From Streptomyces niveus (GTDB lineage Bacteria; Actinomycetota; Actinomycetes; Streptomycetales; Streptomycetaceae), in NCBI RefSeq assembly GCF_002009175.1, contig NZ_CP018047.1:5704001-5768000 (forward strand): DNA of 64,000 nt, read 5' to 3'. Shown here in pieces: positions 52,649-59,458 of this stretch. The notes under the pieces were generated by a model. That model saw only the letters and a program-made list of their open reading frames with translations, ran no database searches and was not told the DNA's origin. A program made the position numbers and the translations under genes. How positions within the stretch are numbered: position 1 is the first letter of the stretch; each line of letters opens with the position of its first letter.

Positions 52649-53485
52649 TCAGCGCGGGGGCCCGGCCGCTTCGTCGAAGGTGACCTCCGCGTCGAAGGCG
52701 GCCCGCCGGGTCGCCCTGCGCAGCGCCTTCAGGACCGTGCCGCCGATCGTCAGCGTCAGTACGACGGTGAGTACGGCCCGCCCCAGGTCCCAGCCGAAGG
52801 ACGTCGCCGCGCAGTACGCGAGGAAGCGCACCAGATTCTCGTGGACCGGGTCGCCCGGCTGGAACGAGATCCCTGAGGAGAGCCCGCCGATGTAGGTCCA
52901 GCCCTGGAGATTCATGATCGTGCCGTACGCGAAGGCGGCGAGGGCCCCGTACACGGCGAGCATCAGCGACTCCCCGCGTCCGCGCAGCCGGTCCGGGCCC
53001 GGCAGCAGCCCCGCGCCCATCGTGAACCAGCCCATCGACAGCATCTGGAACGGCATCCACGGTCCGACGCCGCCGGTCAGCAGGGCTGAGGCGAACATCG
53101 TCACCGCCCCGAGCACGAAACCGAAGCCGGGGCCCAGCACCCGGCCGCTCAGCACCATCAGGAAGAACATCGGCTCCAGACCGGCTGTCCCCGCCCCGAG
53201 CGGACGCAGCGCGGCCCCGACGGCGGCGAGTACGCCCAGCATGGCGACCGCCTTGGCGTCCAGGCCGGAGTCGGCGATGGTCGCGACGACGACGGCGACC
53301 AGGAGCGGGAGCAGCACGGCGAAGAGCCAGGGCGCGTCCTGGGAGTGGGCGAGCCCGGAGGCGGAGTCGGCGAGCAGCGGCCACCCGAACGCGATCACGC
53401 CGACCGCGCTGACGATCACGAGCGCGACGACGGCACGGGGCCCGAGCCGCACGGCACGCGCCTGGGGGGTGGGTGCCGTGCTCAT
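52649..53485 (-). CDS. ECF transporter S component, likely cobalamin-specific (CbrT-like)
   Basis: 278 residues, about six to seven membrane helices (VVALVIVSAVGVIAFGWPLL, LFAVLLPLLVAVVVATIADS, MLGVLAAVGAALRPLGAGTA). PMFFLMVLSGRVLGPGFGFV, then LTGGVGPWMPFQMLSMGWFT and LAAFAYGTIMNLQGWTYIGG are characteristic of the S-component class that binds the vitamin. ATG 53485 overlaps the ATPase stop codon (ATGA). It closes a cobalamin-riboswitch operon, so cobalamin or an analogue is the predicted substrate. Confidence 0.88.
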   Translation of the reverse strand: MSTAPTPQARAVRLGPRAVVALVIVSAVGVIAFGWPLLADSASGLAHSQDAPWLFAVLLPLLVAVVVATIADSGLDAKAVAMLGVLAAVGAALRPLGAGTAGLEPMFFLMVLSGRVLGPGFGFVLGAVTMFASALLTGGVGPWMPFQMLSMGWFTMGAGLLPGPDRLRGRGESLMLAVYGALAAFAYGTIMNLQGWTYIGGLSSGISFQPGDPVHENLVRFLAYCAATSFGWDLGRAVLTVVLTLTIGGTVLKALRRATRRAAFDAEVTFDEAAGPPR

Positions 53486-55656
53486 GCGGGATCCTCGCGG
53501 GGGCGGGGCGCGCGGGTGGTGCGGGGTGAGCCGGGGGTGGGGGTCGTGCCGGTCCGGCCGCGCACGTCCGCCGGGCCGGACCCGCCGGCCGTACCGGCCG
53601 CGCCGGTTGTGCGGGTTGTGTCCGCCGAGCCGGGCCCGCCAGTCCCGCTGGGTGTCTCCGTCGTGCGGGTCGTCCCCGTTACGTCGGGTGCATCCTCCGG
53701 GCCGGCCGCGTCGGGCGCGTCCGTCGTATCGGCCGGACCGGTCCCGGTCGTGCGGGTCGTACCCGCTTTGCCGGGCGCGTCAGGTGGTGCCGTCGTGCCG
53801 GGCGTACCCGCCGAGCGGGTCGTGCCGGTCCGGCCGGGGGCATCCTCCGGGCCGGTCGCACCCGGCGTCCCCGTCGCACCAGGTGCAGCCTCCGCGCCGG
53901 TCGTGTCCGTCGTGCCGGGCCCACCGGGGACCTCTTCCGTACCCGTCGAGTCGCCCGCGTCCGGTGTCAGTGCCCGGCGTACCTGAGAGACCGTCAGCCA
54001 CTCCTGTGGTGCCATGATCTTCGCGACCTGGGGTGCGAACGCCGGGGAGGAGACGACCACTTGGGCGGTCGGGCCGTCGGCGACGATTTCGCCGTCGGCC
54101 AGGATCACGACCCGGCGGGCGAGTTCGGCGGCCAGTTCCACATCGTGGGTGGCCAGTACGATCGCGTGGCCCTGGGCCGCGAGCCCGCGCAGGACGTCCA
54201 CGAGGCGGGCCTTCGCCGCGTAGTCCAGGCCGCGCGTCGGCTCGTCCAGGAGCAGCAGCGGGGGCCGGCCCGTCAGCACGATCGCCAGCGCCAGCGTCAG
54301 CCGCTGCCCCTCCGACAGGTCTCGCGGATGCGTCGCGTCGGGTACGTGCGGCAGCAGTTCGTCGACCAGTGCGCGGCAACTGCCGGGCGGCGCGCCCGCG
54401 TCGGCGTCCGCCGCCGCGCACTCGGCGGCGACCGTGTCCGCGTACAGCAGGTCGCGCGGCTCCTGCGGGACGAGCCCGACCTGGCGGATCAGCTCGCGCG
54501 GATGCGTACGGTGCGGGGCGCGCCCGCCGACCGTGACCGAGCCGGACGAGGGCTCGACCATGCCGACGAGGGTGGCGAGTAGCGTGGACTTGCCCGCGCC
54601 GTTGCGGCCCATGAGCGCGACGGTCTCGCCGGGGGCGACGGTGAGGTCGACACCGCGCAGCGCCTCGATCCGGCCGCGCCGTACGGCGAGCCGGCCGACA
54701 GTTGCGATCTCGGTGCCCTGGCTCTCCGGTTCCGGGGTTCGGCGGTGCAGCAGGCGGCCGAGCGCGGTACGTGGGGTGGCGGGCCGGCCGGCCGGTGCCA
54801 CGGGAGGCGGCGTCGCGTCGCCGACGGACGGGGGCGCCGTCGCGGCGAGTCGGTCGCGCAGGCCGGCCGCCCGTCGGCGGGCGTCGCGTACGGACAGCGG
54901 CAGCGGGTCCCAGCCGGCGAGCCGGCCGAGCGTCACCACCGGCGGACAGACGGGGGAGACGGCCATGATCCGCTCCGGCTCGCCCACGACCGGCGCCTCG
55001 CCGGGGCCGGGAAGAAGGATGACCTGGTCCGCGTACTGCACGACCCGCTCCAGCCGGTGCTCGGCCATCAGTACGGTCGTCCCGAGGTCGTGCACCAGCC
55101 GTTGCAGCACGGCCAGCACCTCCTCGGCCGCCGCCGGGTCGAGCGCGGACGTCGGCTCGTCCAGGACCAGCACCTTGGGGTGCGGCGTGAGCACCGAACC
55201 GATCGCGACGCGCTGCCGCTGACCGCCGGAGAGCGTGGCGATCGGGCGGTCGCGCAGCTCGGCCAGGCCGAGCAGATCCAGGGTCTCCTCGACGCGGCGC
55301 CGCATCACGCCGGGAGCCAGGCCCAACGACTCCATCCCGTAGGCCAGTTCGTCCTCGACCGTGTCGGTGACGAAGTGGGCGAGCGGGTCCTGGCCCACCG
55401 TGCCGACGAGATCGGCGAGTTCGCGCGGCTTGTGGGTACGGGTGTCGCGGCCGTCGACGGTCACCCGGCCGCGGAGCCGGCCGCCCGTGAAGTGCGGCAC
55501 GAGCCCGGAAACCGCGCCGAGCAGGGTGGACTTGCCGACCCCCGAGGGGCCTACCAGCAGCACCAACTCGCCCTCGGGGACCGTGAGATCGACTCCCCGG
55601 AGGGCGGGGGCCGGTGCGTCGGCGTAGGTCACCGAGACCTGCTCGAACCGGATCAC
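53482..55656 (-). CDS. Fused ECF transporter ATPase (two ABC domains) with low-complexity tail
   Basis: 724 residues, GTG 55656 overlapping the EcfT stop codon (GTGA). First ABC domain: Walker A GPSGVGKST, signature LSGGQRQRVAIG, Walker B VLVLDEPTSALD, switch AEHRL. A linker with basic and Pro-rich sequence, then the second domain: GRNGAGKST, signature LSEGQRLTLAL, LLLLDEPTRGLD, ATHDVE. Both are intact, so it corresponds to EcfA1 and EcfA2 in one chain. After residue 565 comes about 160 residues of Thr/Pro/Gly/Asp repeats (GTTRTTG-like) with no known domain. It couples ATP hydrolysis to uptake. Confidence 0.94.
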   Translation of the reverse strand: MIRFEQVSVTYADAPAPALRGVDLTVPEGELVLLVGPSGVGKSTLLGAVSGLVPHFTGGRLRGRVTVDGRDTRTHKPRELADLVGTVGQDPLAHFVTDTVEDELAYGMESLGLAPGVMRRRVEETLDLLGLAELRDRPIATLSGGQRQRVAIGSVLTPHPKVLVLDEPTSALDPAAAEEVLAVLQRLVHDLGTTVLMAEHRLERVVQYADQVILLPGPGEAPVVGEPERIMAVSPVCPPVVTLGRLAGWDPLPLSVRDARRRAAGLRDRLAATAPPSVGDATPPPVAPAGRPATPRTALGRLLHRRTPEPESQGTEIATVGRLAVRRGRIEALRGVDLTVAPGETVALMGRNGAGKSTLLATLVGMVEPSSGSVTVGGRAPHRTHPRELIRQVGLVPQEPRDLLYADTVAAECAAADADAGAPPGSCRALVDELLPHVPDATHPRDLSEGQRLTLALAIVLTGRPPLLLLDEPTRGLDYAAKARLVDVLRGLAAQGHAIVLATHDVELAAELARRVVILADGEIVADGPTAQVVVSSPAFAPQVAKIMAPQEWLTVSQVRRALTPDAGDSTGTEEVPGGPGTTDTTGAEAAPGATGTPGATGPEDAPGRTGTTRSAGTPGTTAPPDAPGKAGTTRTTGTGPADTTDAPDAAGPEDAPDVTGTTRTTETPSGTGGPGSADTTRTTGAAGTAGGSGPADVRGRTGTTPTPGSPRTTRAPRPREDPA

Positions 55657-57137
55657 CGGGTCTTCTCCTCGGACGTGGTGGTGGGAGTGGCGGGCAGGGG
55701 CGCGACGAAGGCCGGGAGCAGGCCGAGCAGGATGCCGGCGGCGGGCCAGAGCGGCAGACCGGGTGCCACGAGCGGTACGACGCCGGGGTGCAGGCCCGCC
55801 GGGTCGTACGCGCTCGCCCGGATCATCAGCGCGGCGACGGCCGCGCCCGACCCTGCGACCAGCCAGGCCCGGGCGCCCCACAGGTCGGGGCGGTAGCGCG
55901 TACGGACCGAACGGCGCCCGCCGAGCCGCAGACCGCCGAGCGCGGCGACGAGCCCGATGATCAGGAGGGGCAGACCGTACCCGGCGCCCTCGGCGGCGAG
56001 GAGCCCGTACGAGCCCGCGCAGACGCCGAGCAGACCGCCGAGGGTGAGCGCGGTGGTGGTGCGGCGGACGGTGGGGGGTACGGCGGCCGTCCGGCCGTAG
56101 CCGCGCGCGTCCATCGACGCGGCGACGGCGACGGACCGCTCCAACGCGCCCTCCAGGACCGGCAGTCCGATCTGGAGGATCGCCTTCACCCCGCCGGTCG
56201 GCCGGCCGCGCAGCCGGCGGGCGGTGCGCAGGCGAAGGACGTCGGCGACCATGTTCGGCGCGAAGGTCATGGCGACGACGACGGCGACACCGGCCTCGTA
56301 CAGCGCGCCCGGCAGGGACTTGAGCAGTCTGGCCGGATTGGCGAGCGCGTTCGCGGCGCCCACGCAGATGAGGAGCGTGGCGAGCTTGGCGCCGTCGTAC
56401 AGCGCGAACACCAGCTGCTCGGCCGTCACCCGTCCCCCGATCCGGACGCCCTTCGCCCAGTCGGGCAGGGGCACTTCGGGCAGGGTCACGATCAGATGCG
56501 AGCCGGGGATCGGCGAGCCGAGGAAGGCGGAGAAGACGAGCCGGACGACGATGACGGCGAGCCCGAGCTTGACGAAGGCCCCGTACGAGCGGGCCCACGG
56601 AGCGTCGGTCCGCCGGGCGGCGACGACGTACCCGGCCACTCCGACGAGGAGCCCGAGCAGCAGCGGGTTGGTGGTCCGCGAGGCGGCGACGGCCAGCCCG
56701 AGAGCCCACAGCCACCACGCCCCGGCGTGCAGGGCGTTGCTACGGGTGGCTTGAGGCGCGCGGAGACTGCGGCGGGTGCGCGTTGGCGCGTTGGCGTTGC
56801 CCTCCGGGGGAGGGGGCGGTGCGCTGTCGGGGGCCGCGCGACGGGTGCCAGGATCGGTGTTCGTGCGCCCGGGGGCGCCGACCGGCTGGGCGGGGGCGCT
56901 GCGGTCCGCCTCGGGGCTCGCCTGCGTGTCGTGGTTCCGGTTCGCCTCACGGGGGCGCGGGGCATGGCCCGCACCCGCGTTCGTATCCGCCCGGCGCCCG
57001 TCCGCCGGGTCAGCCGCGGCGACGGCGGGCCTGCCAGACCGCAGCCGTGGCCAGGGTGAGCACGGCCGCGGCTCCCGCGACGATGCCGAGCGACGGGGTG
57101 CCGCCCGCCTCGTCCTCGTCGCCCCTGGTGAGACCAC
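55653..57137 (-). CDS. ECF transporter T component (EcfT) without a good start codon
   Basis: The recognisable protein runs from about 56745 (ALHAGAWWLWALGLAVAASR) to 55653: four to six helices, LARSYGAFVKLGLAVIVVRL-type segments, the ALYDGAKLATLLICVGAANA coupling helices, VAVVVAMTFAPNMVAD, RLRTARRLRGRPTGG and AVAASMDARGYGR, matching the two Ala-Arg coupling motifs of EcfT. There is no in-frame ATG, GTG or TTG between there and the upstream gene's stop codon at 57010. The nearest, GTG 57137, lies 127 nt inside the SCO2322 gene. The start given is that GTG; a rare start or an uncorrected frameshift (ATG 56965 is in another frame) is equally possible. Confidence 0.8.
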   Translation of the reverse strand: MVSPGATRTRRAAPRRSASSREPRPCSPWPRLRSGRPAVAAADPADGRRADTNAGAGHAPRPREANRNHDTQASPEADRSAPAQPVGAPGRTNTDPGTRRAAPDSAPPPPPEGNANAPTRTRRSLRAPQATRSNALHAGAWWLWALGLAVAASRTTNPLLLGLLVGVAGYVVAARRTDAPWARSYGAFVKLGLAVIVVRLVFSAFLGSPIPGSHLIVTLPEVPLPDWAKGVRIGGRVTAEQLVFALYDGAKLATLLICVGAANALANPARLLKSLPGALYEAGVAVVVAMTFAPNMVADVLRLRTARRLRGRPTGGVKAILQIGLPVLEGALERSVAVAASMDARGYGRTAAVPPTVRRTTTALTLGGLLGVCAGSYGLLAAEGAGYGLPLLIIGLVAALGGLRLGGRRSVRTRYRPDLWGARAWLVAGSGAAVAALMIRASAYDPAGLHPGVVPLVAPGLPLWPAAGILLGLLPAFVAPLPATPTTTSEEKTR

Positions 57138-57735
57138 CCGTGGCGGGCGAGACGCTAGGGGCCGGGGACGCGGCCCTGTCGTCGGAGATCTGTTCGCCGC
57201 AGCCCGACTTCGGGTAGCCGGTGATCGCGCAGAGCAGCGCGGCACTGTTGTAGCGCAGCGGCTTCGCCACCGCCGCGAGGGCGTCCGCGCTCGTCGCGTC
57301 GGCGTCGACCCGCGCGCACTCCGCCAGCGGCGCCGGCGGCGTCTCGCCGTCCGGGGCGTCCGCCTCCGTGCCCGGGTCGACGACCACCGCGATCCGCTTG
57401 GCGCCGCTCTTCGCGGGCGTCGACCCGCAGACGGCCGCGAAGTCCGGTGTCTCGCGGGGCTTCGCCGCGTCCTGGCTGTCCGCGCTGACCGCGAAGCGGA
57501 AACCGTTGACCGCCCCGTCGGCGGGGCGCGCGAGGGCCGGTCCCTGTGTGGCGTACGTCCACTCCGCGCCGTCGCTTTCCCAGAACGACCAGTAGCGGTA
57601 GCCCGCCGCGTGGGCCGTCCCCGTGCCCGGCACCGTCAGCGCGCCGGTGAACGCGAGCAGGACCGCGACGAGCGGGACGACCCGCCGGGCCCGAATCCGG
57701 GGCCGTATCCGGGCGCGTACAGGCGCCCGCCTCAT
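57010..57735 (-). CDS. SCO2322 family membrane-anchored extracellular protein
   Basis: 241 residues; ATG 57735 overlaps the toroid gene stop codon (ATGA). Signal peptide (RVVPLVAVLLAFTGALTVPG, then TAHA), ectodomain beginning AGYRYWSFWESDGAEWTYAT with DGAVNGFRFAVSADSQDAAK, a Cys pair region (FAAVCGST, ECARVD, LLCAITGYPKSGCGEQ), a disordered stretch and a C-terminal helix (SLGIVAGAAAVLTLATAAVW) with RRRRG, so it is tethered outside. The YWSFWES...DGAVNGFRF pattern recalls the DUF4430/beta domain of transcobalamin (YWxFYVNG...DGDVIEW). Cobalamin binding is inferred. Confidence 0.85.
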   Translation of the reverse strand: MRRAPVRARIRPRIRARRVVPLVAVLLAFTGALTVPGTGTAHAAGYRYWSFWESDGAEWTYATQGPALARPADGAVNGFRFAVSADSQDAAKPRETPDFAAVCGSTPAKSGAKRIAVVVDPGTEADAPDGETPPAPLAECARVDADATSADALAAVAKPLRYNSAALLCAITGYPKSGCGEQISDDRAASPAPSVSPATGGLTRGDEDEAGGTPSLGIVAGAAAVLTLATAAVWQARRRRG

Positions 57736-59045
57736 GCCCGGCGCCGCTTCGCGCGCACCACGAACACCGCGCAGATGACGAGCGCGGCGAACGCCCCGAT
57801 GCCCATCGTCCACAGGTTCCCGGACATGCTGTGCTTCTCCGCCTTCTGCTCCGCCAGCACCTTCTGCTGCTCGGCGGTCGTCAACGGCTTGGGCCCGATC
57901 CACTTGGGCGCCGGTCCCGTCGCGTTCAGGGCCTTCACCAGGTCGGTGCCGCCGAACTTGCGCGGGTCGGTGCTCGTCGTGTGCGCGGCGAAGATCAACT
58001 GGGCGTAGGCGGCGGGGCCGTTCTCCTTCGCCCACGCGGCCGAGTTCTTCTCCAGCCACTTCATCGGGGCCGCCGCCTGCTTGCCGTACCCGGCGGTCGT
58101 CAGCGCGACAACGGCGTCCGCCGTGTTGCCGTGGTCGGGCAGCGGCGCCGAGTCGGCGGCGCCCGGCATGGGCGGCTGGTCCAGGTGACCGGTCTTGGCG
58201 AGCGCCTTCACCAGATACGACGCGCCGTTGCGCGCCGCGCGCTCCGGCGTGAGCGGGTGCAGGTCCTGGCAGACGGGCCCGGGGCCGGGCTCGACGCCCG
58301 TCGTGACCATCCGCTTCCCGATCCCGCCGAGCAGACCGGCGGCCGTGGCGTCGGCGTTGGGGAGCAGTTTGCCGGACTTGTCCGGCTGGTACGCGAACGC
58401 GCCGCCGCCCTCCTTCGCGTCACAGGGGATCGCGAAGGTGCTCAGCGCCTGGTACGGCGACCGGCCCTCCGTCGACAGCCGTGTGCCCACCGGGGCGCCG
58501 CCGGCGGCCAGTGCTCCTATCGCCAGGCCGGTGGAGTTGGCGTCGCTGGGCGCGCCCGCGCTGTAACCCCAGCCGCCGTCCTTGTTCTGCACGGAGGTGA
58601 GCCAGCTGATGCCGTTGTTCATGGCGTCCGGGTGGGTGGTGAGCGCGGCCAGTATCTGTACGGCGGCGGCCGTGGAGTTGGTGTCGACGACGGTCGTCGC
58701 GTCGCACGGCTTCGTGGTGTCGGGGCGGTACGCCGGAAAGGCGCCGCTGTCGCACTGCTGGCCGAGGAGCCAGGCGACGGCGGAGTCGGCGGGCATGACG
58801 TTCACGGCGCGCTGCGCCAGCATGGCGAGCGACTGCCGCCAGACGCCGTCGTAGGTCGGGTCCGTCGTGCCGTACATCCCGGCGGGCAGCGCGGCCGGCG
58901 GACCGGCGGGGGCCCCCTCGTCGGCCGGAGAAGCCGGAGAAGCCGGGGTGGCCAGGGCGGTGGAGGGGACGGCGGTCACGCACAGGGCAGCGGCCGCGGC
59001 GAGCGCTGCTGCGCCGCGCGCCACGTGGCGGCGAACGGTGGTCAT
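57732..59045 (-). CDS. Secreted alpha/alpha-toroid protein (prenyltransferase/terpene-cyclase-like), B12-regulated
   Basis: 437 residues, first gene of the riboswitch operon; ATG 59045, GGAGAGG about 15 nt upstream. Signal peptide (RHVARGAAALAAAAALCVTA), then repeated toroid helices with DTNSTAAAVQILAAL, QNKDGGWGYSAGAPSDANSTGLAIGAL, NADATAAGLLGGIG, GNTADAVVAL. A C-terminal membrane helix (MGIGAFAALVICAVFVVRAK) anchors it facing outward. The fold family includes squalene cyclases and also the cobalamin-binding alpha domain of intrinsic factor/transcobalamin. It lacks the Asp-rich catalytic motif DxDD. Given its regulation and operon, a cobalamin-binding role is more likely than cyclisation. 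Confidence 0.9.
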   Translation of the reverse strand: MTTVRRHVARGAAALAAAAALCVTAVPSTALATPASPASPADEGAPAGPPAALPAGMYGTTDPTYDGVWRQSLAMLAQRAVNVMPADSAVAWLLGQQCDSGAFPAYRPDTTKPCDATTVVDTNSTAAAVQILAALTTHPDAMNNGISWLTSVQNKDGGWGYSAGAPSDANSTGLAIGALAAGGAPVGTRLSTEGRSPYQALSTFAIPCDAKEGGGAFAYQPDKSGKLLPNADATAAGLLGGIGKRMVTTGVEPGPGPVCQDLHPLTPERAARNGASYLVKALAKTGHLDQPPMPGAADSAPLPDHGNTADAVVALTTAGYGKQAAAPMKWLEKNSAAWAKENGPAAYAQLIFAAHTTSTDPRKFGGTDLVKALNATGPAPKWIGPKPLTTAEQQKVLAEQKAEKHSMSGNLWTMGIGAFAALVICAVFVVRAKRRRA

Positions 59046-59165
59046 GGCGGGTGCGGCCTCTCCTGCGTGAATGCGTGAACGCGGGAACCGGGCAGGCACA
59101 CTGAGGCACCAGGCTCGGCTCCGTATGCCTCGACGGTGCCGGCCACCGGGGGTTTCCGGTGGCGC

Positions 59166-59281
59166 GAGCCGGTCACGTCCGCGTCCGGGGTGTTCCGACT
59201 CACCGCCGGTCGGGGCGGCTCACGGTTGCGGGTCAGTGCCGGATTCGCACCGGCTTCCCCCCGTACGGGCATGATGACGAC
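59166..59281 (-). promoter_or_regulatory. Cobalamin riboswitch
   Basis: On the minus strand, GGGGAAGCCGGTGCGAATCC then GGCACTGACCCGCAACCGTG (59260-59221) match the B12-box core GGGAAxxxGGTGxxAATCC/CxGxCCCGCxACxGT. Further along GGTGAGTCGGAACACC (about 59192-59177) matches the closing GxxAGTCxGxAxACC. It ends 121 nt before ATG 59045. A CCACCGG/CCGGTGG hairpin (59143-59162) follows and may be part of the expression platform. Binding of cobalamin should switch off the operon. Confidence 0.93.
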
Positions 59282-59435
59282 GCGCTCACTCTACCGGCCC
59301 CTTTTCGGCCGCCCCGGACGCCGCCGCCTGGGCCGCCACCGCAAGGGACCGCCGGAGCGGCGGAGGCCACGCACAGGCCAGCGGCTGCGGCGAGCGCTGC
59401 CGCGCCGCGCGCCACGTGGCGGCGAACGGTGGTCA
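59233..59435 (-). pseudogene. Truncated duplicate of the toroid gene 5' end
   Basis: ATG 59435 opens TTVRRHVARGAAALAAAA, the same signal peptide start as the gene at 59045, then diverges (GLCVASAAPAVPCGGGPGGG) and runs 67 codons into the riboswitch, ending at 59233. The rest of the protein is gone. It looks like the scar of a lost tandem paralogue. It is unlikely to be functional as a protein. Confidence 0.7.
59288..59293 (-). promoter_or_regulatory. -10 box of the riboswitch operon
   Basis: TAGAGT on the minus strand places transcription start near 59281, just ahead of the riboswitch. No clear -35 box is seen. Confidence 0.5.
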
Positions 59436-59458
59436 TGGCGGGTGCGGCCTCTCCTGCG
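59368..59458. repeat. 91-bp direct duplicate of 58977-59067
   Basis: The two segments differ at about 3 of 91 positions and cover the ribosome binding region (GGAGAGGCCGCACCCGCC), ATG and the first 20 codons. They are 391 bp apart, flanking the riboswitch. Confidence 0.9.

Follow-up and report, generated by a model that had tools for sequence, protein, structure and literature searches.

A cobalamin riboswitch operon of Streptomyces niveus probably encodes a split, doubly circularly permuted bacterial transcobalamin beside an energy-coupling factor importer

The DNA analyzed here (the window) is a stretch of 64,000 nucleotides from Streptomyces niveus (assembly GCF_002009175.1, contig NZ_CP018047.1, positions 5,704,001 to 5,768,000), which contains an operon on the minus strand in which a cobalamin riboswitch is followed, in order, by genes for a SCO2321-family toroid protein, a SCO2322-family protein, an EcfT-like permease of the energy-coupling factor (ECF) type, a double ATP-binding cassette (ABC) ATPase, and a PF12822 EcfS component. 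The riboswitch core (59188-59260, minus strand) belongs to RF00174, whose covariance model scores it at 37.6 bits (gathering score, 31.5; E-value in the window, 5.9e-6), and the Streptomyces-specific covariance model R1, which has the window in its training set, placed the element at 59175-59266. A sequence-only reading of this DNA had put a B12 riboswitch at 59166-59281 at the head of five coupled genes. The element and the gene order were borne out; the coordinates were slightly too wide, and the coupling applies to genes 1/2 (ATGA), 3/4 (GTGA), and 4/5 (ATGA), whose start and stop codons overlap, and not to genes 2 and 3, which have no overlap of this kind. R1 was trained on the window and on 22 of 80 Streptomyces loci, which therefore match it by construction; these 80 are the best of 496 confirmed relatives from a genome-record scan with a SCO2322 alignment, all titled Streptomyces except one labelled [Kitasatospora] papulosa. 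In the 23-sequence riboswitch alignment, 97.4% of the pair cells were paired and 5 pairs had changed on both sides, counts that were taken on the same alignment that gave the structure and that include as many both-side changes (5) when the partners are slid by -1. A 98-bp near-copy (93/98 identical) at 59361-59458 repeats positions 58970-59067 (minus strand), which hold the ribosome-binding site and signal-peptide start of gene 1; it lies upstream of the riboswitch, which is therefore flanked by a truncated gene 1 start on one side and the real one on the other. No near-copy reached the script score in any other Streptomyces locus with enough upstream sequence (up to 80).

The first two genes encode the proteins of main concern here. 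Gene 1 (57732-59045, minus strand) encodes a putatively secreted, C-terminally membrane-anchored protein of 437 amino acids, which matched NF053823 (SCO2321_fam) at 2.1e-149 and PF13243 (SQHop_cyclase_C) at 27.3 bits, over the cut-off of 26.1, and the profile of its family matched squalene-hopene cyclase at 9.4e-25. By these sequence matches the protein is an alpha/alpha toroid, the fold that had been proposed for it from the sequence. PF01122 (Cobalamin_bind) was not listed for the window toroid at E up to 1; it appeared below its cut-off in two relatives (L038, 7.9e-4; L072, 0.0058), and at E up to 0.01 in 1 of 14 canonical toroids. Gene 2 (57010-57735, minus strand) encodes a putatively secreted, C-terminally anchored beta-grasp protein of 241 amino acids, which matched NF040672 (SCO2322_fam) at 5.6e-67 and no family in the Pfam copy searched. 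Both proteins have a hydrophobic stretch at the N-terminus and another, with RRR after it, at the C-terminus, a layout that fits secretion and membrane anchoring.

The gene 2 protein carries the two halves of a transcobalamin-type beta domain in swapped order. Its half A (residues 46-103, YRYWSFW...NGFRF...VC; 57427-57600, minus strand) corresponds to the C-terminal half of that domain, and its half B (residues 113-179, KRIAVVVDPG...LLCAITGYPKSGC; 57199-57399, minus strand) to the N-terminal half. When the Streptomyces SCO2322 alignment was split into these halves and each was searched against 2,189 open frames of distant loci, two proteins were significant for both, each in the order B-A: L036, with B at 91-154 (3.0e-6) and A at 165-218 (1.7e-10), and L037, with B at 68-128 (4.2e-5) and A at 136-188 (9.0e-10); most other distant proteins matched half A only. 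A database search with the L036 protein returned 34 homologues, of which 25 were B-A, 4 were A-B, and 5 could not be assigned. Conversely, a profile built from 26 canonical domains matched 19 of 20 proteins over the NF040672 cut-off as positions 88-144 followed by 13-87 (second piece, E 2e-2 to 6e-5), the beta domain being cut at nearly the same profile position (87/88) in all 19, and the 20th gave one piece only. NF040672 itself broke into B-A pieces in G134 and G284 of a phylum sample and in G306, G325, G340, and G410 of a class sample (296 genomes each). Since the 20 loci examined in the class were hand-picked from matches over the NF040672 cut-off, which favors A-B by construction, the informative data on beta order are the 80 Streptomyces loci, the 34 homologues, and the B-A matches in which NF040672 is split. 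Relative to its distant relatives, the beta protein is a circular permutant.

Structure prediction agreed with this assignment. An AlphaFold model of SCO2322 residues 45-184, made with 63 of the 80 relatives picked for diversity, reached a predicted local distance difference test score (pLDDT) of 90.7 and a predicted template modeling score (pTM) of 0.86. In this model, strands E2-10, E15-17, and E31-40 come first and E68-76, E93-100, H105-112, and E124-127 second, the reverse of the homologue, and the canonical order (strand, strand, helix, hairpin, then last strands) is not followed. The homologue with the opposite half order, modeled from an alignment from which 4 of 34 rows (P0271, P0274, P0275, and P0276) had been removed as A-B, is predicted to fold as the beta domain of intrinsic factor and transcobalamin. 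The SCO2322 protein thus belongs to the transcobalamin-type beta-grasp fold in a noncanonical order, as a homologous permutant and not a plain member of the soluble-ligand-binding beta-grasp (SLBB) or DUF4430 type, and the predicted fold of the homologue supports the link that had been drawn from the motif YWSFW...DGAVNGFRF to a transcobalamin-type beta domain. PF14478 (DUF4430) had no match in the window protein and was found elsewhere in 3 of 44 genomes; two such matches, G107:C8:26603 and G040:C203:4034 (L069), lie within 0.7 kb of same-strand cobalamin riboswitch matches (27.1 and 69.2 bits). The SCO2322-type homologues listed, canonical and permuted alike, bear the precomputed label PF28005.1, so that a newer Pfam model already covers both orders.

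A corresponding swap was found in the toroid. Its segment M (residues 57-258; 58272-58877, minus strand), which follows segment T in distant relatives, here precedes T (residues 268-379; 57909-58244, minus strand), which is N-terminal in those relatives. The Streptomyces M profile matched 28 distant open reading frames (ORFs) and the T profile 22, and T came before M in all 21 ORFs with both segments, with T matches at E 2e-13 to 9e-3; one locus contributes two of these ORFs. The remaining T match, in L073, stood without M at E 0.5, and T was not detected in 7 of the 28 ORFs carrying M. Among the 20 class loci, which were not preselected for toroid order, nine had both segments near SCO2322, with M before T in 9/9, and on the same nine a canonical toroid profile matched with positions ~130-330 preceding ~22-132. 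Judged by sequence, then, the window toroid is circularly permuted relative to its distant relatives, and the permutation is documented by sequence for both lobes and by structure for the beta lobe. One genome of the window's genus (G504) has a permuted toroid and, elsewhere, segments in the opposite order (NF053823 positions 273-351 before 48-249). The toroid match G350:C37:39588-40634 holds one internal TAG stop; it may consist of two segments, or the stop may reflect gene decay or a sequencing error. Slippage along the toroid repeats was considered and rejected, as the second matches are orders of magnitude weaker than the best and a comparable swap is seen in the beta domain.

The remaining three genes encode the transporter. 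Gene 3 (55653-57137, minus strand), whose start codon is not fixed (in-frame GTG at 57245, 57137, and 56639), encodes the EcfT-like permease; it scored 17.9 bits with CbiQ PF02361, under the cut-off of 25, and matched a solved EcfT at E 0.031, and relatives stand at the same operon place in 63 Streptomyces loci. Gene 4 (53482-55656, minus strand; GTG start) encodes an EcfA-EcfA' protein with two ABC_tran domains in one chain (cbiO TIGR01166, 262.8 bits versus 211.8), which provides the two ABC ATPases of an ECF transporter. It ends in a low-complexity, Gly/Thr/Pro-rich C-terminal tail of ~135-160 residues (53482-53960, minus strand); in 72 Streptomyces relatives, the alignment to the window protein stops at residue 563 (median; maximum, 589), beyond which the relatives have a median of 3 further residues. 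Gene 5 (52649-53485, minus strand) encodes the EcfS substrate component, assigned as such by PF12822 (ECF_trnsprt; 32.1 bits versus 30.7); the family searches listed no CbiM match for this gene.

The pair of surface proteins is conserved across the Streptomyces set. The toroid and SCO2322 were both encoded in 80/80 of these best loci, and all five genes were found in 63, in the same order in every one. Of the 17 loci without one or more genes, 16 were on shorter pieces and one (L112, Streptomyces sp. A108) was on a full-length piece of 18.6 kb, which had the toroid and SCO2322 and no match for EcfT, the ATPase, or EcfS. R1 found one riboswitch each in 78 of the 80 loci, on the same strand and 1.3 to 2 kb upstream of where SCO2322 matched; the other two loci were cut by a contig end. 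In the phylum sample, NF040672 matched in 44 genomes, 10 of them over the cut-off, including the window's genome, and most of the weaker matches covered the YWSFW half only. A same-strand cobalamin riboswitch match lay less than 3.3 kb upstream of 38 of 46 NF040672 matches (19 over the gathering score and 19 below), a count that used 53 rows from a longer riboswitch table, itself made with stricter filters. Eight had none by this count: G242 and G002 have a match on another contig, and G022 and G225 have none. Three Streptomyces loci (G107, G193, and G023) gained a riboswitch with the Streptomyces-specific covariance model, and for the second match of G204 the nearest riboswitch, on the other side, had hidden one at 680554-680726, upstream and on the same strand. 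Many of the distant loci further contain genes related to those for EcfT, the double ATPase, EcfS, and the toroid in the window. In the class sample, NF040672 matched in 125 genomes and was over the cut-off in 103. Among the 20 class loci, 12 had a cobalamin-class riboswitch that reached the gathering score and preceded the first surface gene, in a thirteenth (L185) it lies elsewhere on the piece, and 16 had EcfT, ATPase, and EcfS matches on the piece.

Relatives with both lobes in a single chain were found at three loci: in L040 (942 amino acids), L044 (758 amino acids), and L072 (815 amino acids), a toroid precedes one or two canonical beta domains, as it does in the animal carriers, and each chain also has three CWB2 cell-wall-binding domains. 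Each of these single-chain relatives begins at a riboswitch match (G247, 31.0 bits, just below the gathering score; G162, 37.1 bits; G258, 40.7 bits). The fused chains support the earlier suggestion that the two halves of an animal B12 carrier may exist in the window as two tethered proteins. Toroids with SLH domains were found at L050 and L066. G171, of the window's genus, has a second set (L075) in addition to its permuted operon. Within 8 kb, this set combines a B-A beta protein found with an iterated profile and a T-M toroid in a 689-residue ORF with a DUF4430 protein and a pair of riboswitch matches (91.6 and 26.9 bits). In an ATPase tree made by a quick method, with labels assigned by locus group and not individually, the 26 permuted operons and the 28 canonical ones required 4 state changes, of which the starred branches force only one, and one 16-row clade was entirely canonical; the permuted form may have had a single origin or several.

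Elsewhere in the genome, cobalamin-class riboswitches precede metE, cbiB and cobQ, and the ribonucleotide reductase alpha gene, and another precedes genes for a BtuF/F420-0-like binding protein (below curated cut-offs) and a FecCD-type permease. The host accordingly has late B12-synthesis genes and another riboswitch-controlled importer, and the operon would be a second B12 route, perhaps of higher affinity or corrinoid specific.

On this evidence, the operon probably encodes a cobalamin (corrinoid) uptake system, a split, doubly circularly permuted bacterial transcobalamin that would bind cobalamin and feed an ECF importer. As suggested by the riboswitch class, low adenosylcobalamin would permit expression of the five genes. 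SCO2321 and SCO2322 would sit on the outer face of the membrane by their C-terminal anchors and form a transcobalamin-like carrier whose two lobes are separate proteins, both circularly permuted with respect to deeper relatives. Cobalamin would be enclosed between toroid and beta lobe, as in transcobalamin, and passed to EcfS, with EcfT and the double ATPase completing the import. It is possible, and we propose this more tentatively, that actinomycetes rebuilt transcobalamin as a two-piece membrane-tethered receptor with both lobes permuted, perhaps so that the new ends allow anchoring and the sandwich closes above EcfS.

Several observations weigh against a two-lobe carrier feeding an ECF channel. 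The nearest solved relatives of the toroid are squalene-hopene cyclases, which are closer in sequence than transcobalamin, and PF14478 was matched by 0 of 26 canonical beta relatives. Modeling and structure comparison, the check proposed with the sequence-only reading, succeeded for the beta homologue and not for the window's own beta model, which had no structural match, so that its link to transcobalamin runs via the permuted homologue. A single-sequence search with EcfS at E up to 10 listed neither CbrT nor another solved S component. No close ECF set stood beside SCO2322 in 4 of the 20 class loci (none in L189, L192, and L195; a weak ATPase match in L190), and the late B12-synthesis genes and second riboswitch-controlled ABC importer make the need for the operon not obvious. 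A toroid-family match was absent in 10 of the 20 SCO2322 genomes of the class, and an eleventh (G401) had weak ones only, which makes the beta protein the core of the system; at five toroid-less loci (L177, L179, L180, L181, and L186), the riboswitch directly precedes the beta gene. Where the toroid is absent, the beta protein alone might act as receptor or gate of the ECF channel. These toroid-less genomes and loci would also fit an explanation in which both surface proteins bind corrinoid and SCO2322 alone belongs to the import machine, the toroid doing other work, such as cell-wall attachment or binding of another ligand. We consider this unlikely, though deserving of serious attention: toroid and beta domain are fused in three relatives, they occur together in every one of the best Streptomyces loci, and both are permuted in the same loci, in all nine with both toroid segments.

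That the transporter imports cobalt or another B12 precursor, bound by the surface proteins in place of a corrinoid, would suit its CbiQ/CbiO-type subunits and the cobalamin riboswitch that also precedes cobalt transport genes (the cbiM operon) in Streptomyces lividans, according to the portion of PMC8079986 used here; this is improbable, given the match between the beta homologue and the beta lobe of the cobalamin carriers of animals and that of gene 5 to PF12822, with no CbiM family listed. It is more improbable still that the half swap is an artefact of toroid repeats, strand exchange, or misread gene ends. The toroid fold does consist of repeats, and weak second T matches occur in the same protein (the strongest at 5e-3 and 1.6e-2), but among those listed they are at least four orders weaker than the best match, which is N-terminal of M in every distant toroid with both segments; moreover, the half order was read from single open frames, the beta domain is cut at about one profile position (87/88) in 19 of 20 proteins, and NF040672 splits into swapped pieces in the six genomes named above.

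Parts of the split-transcobalamin reading have precedents, taken here from portions of the papers cited. Burroughs et al. (2007; PMC1796856) defined the SLBB superfamily, noted that toroid and SLBB domains are fused in bacterial proteins whose operons also encode CbiO and CbiQ, and proposed that these proteins scavenge B12 and were transferred to animals. That transcobalamin-like clade shares with the window a secreted toroid and SLBB domain beside CbiO/CbiQ and a proposed role in B12 scavenging; it was described in low-GC Gram-positives, planctomycetes, and euryarchaea, and the main text of the paper contains neither "riboswitch" nor "Streptomyces" nor "permut". Bacterial toroid-plus-beta scavengers were therefore already predicted in 2007, and what is added here is the permutation of both proteins and the riboswitch link. 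In contrast to transcobalamin, intrinsic factor, and haptocorrin, the window has two separate, anchored, permuted proteins with an ECF importer and a riboswitch alongside, and PF01122 is not among the matches listed for its toroid. ECF-CbrT of Lactobacillus delbrueckii (PMC5997447) is likewise an ECF-type importer, of cobalamin and cobinamide, but there the S component is itself the substrate-binding protein, whereas the window S component matches no solved S component in sequence. Modules of acI bacteria lacking a B12 pathway (PMC5301498) also combine a cobalamin/adenosylcobalamin riboswitch with an ECF module as putative cobalamin transporters; unlike in the window operon, surface proteins are not mentioned in the portion of that paper concerned. 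BtuG of Bacteroides (PMC6143338) is also a surface protein that catches B12 for an importer, a lipoprotein working with BtuB, and resembles the window proteins by role. A circularly permuted beta-grasp is already known from the ubiquitin-fold domain (UFD) of E1 enzymes (PMC1949818), which is ubiquitin related and has its N-terminal strand moved to the C-terminus. An earlier list cited in PMC4991794 puts B12 riboswitches before eight further genes or clusters of Streptomyces coelicolor, among which the SCO2321-SCO2322 operon may be included; among the papers listed in our literature searches, we found none on the function or permutation of the SCO2321/SCO2322 pair.

These results give a testable function to two named, unexplained families, SCO2321 and SCO2322, and add Actinobacteria to the bacterial background from which the animal B12 carriers are known. 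They also describe a natural experiment in which both lobes of a presumed ligand sandwich have been permuted and canonical forms persist in relatives, and they raise the question of why an ECF importer whose S component itself binds substrate should have extracellular partners. If the rebuilt two-piece receptor is real, it would be a natural example of circular permutation in both members of an interacting protein pair, one whose unpermuted and single-chain relatives survive in other actinobacteria and whose unpermuted relatives stand beside the permuted pair in some genomes of the window's own genus.

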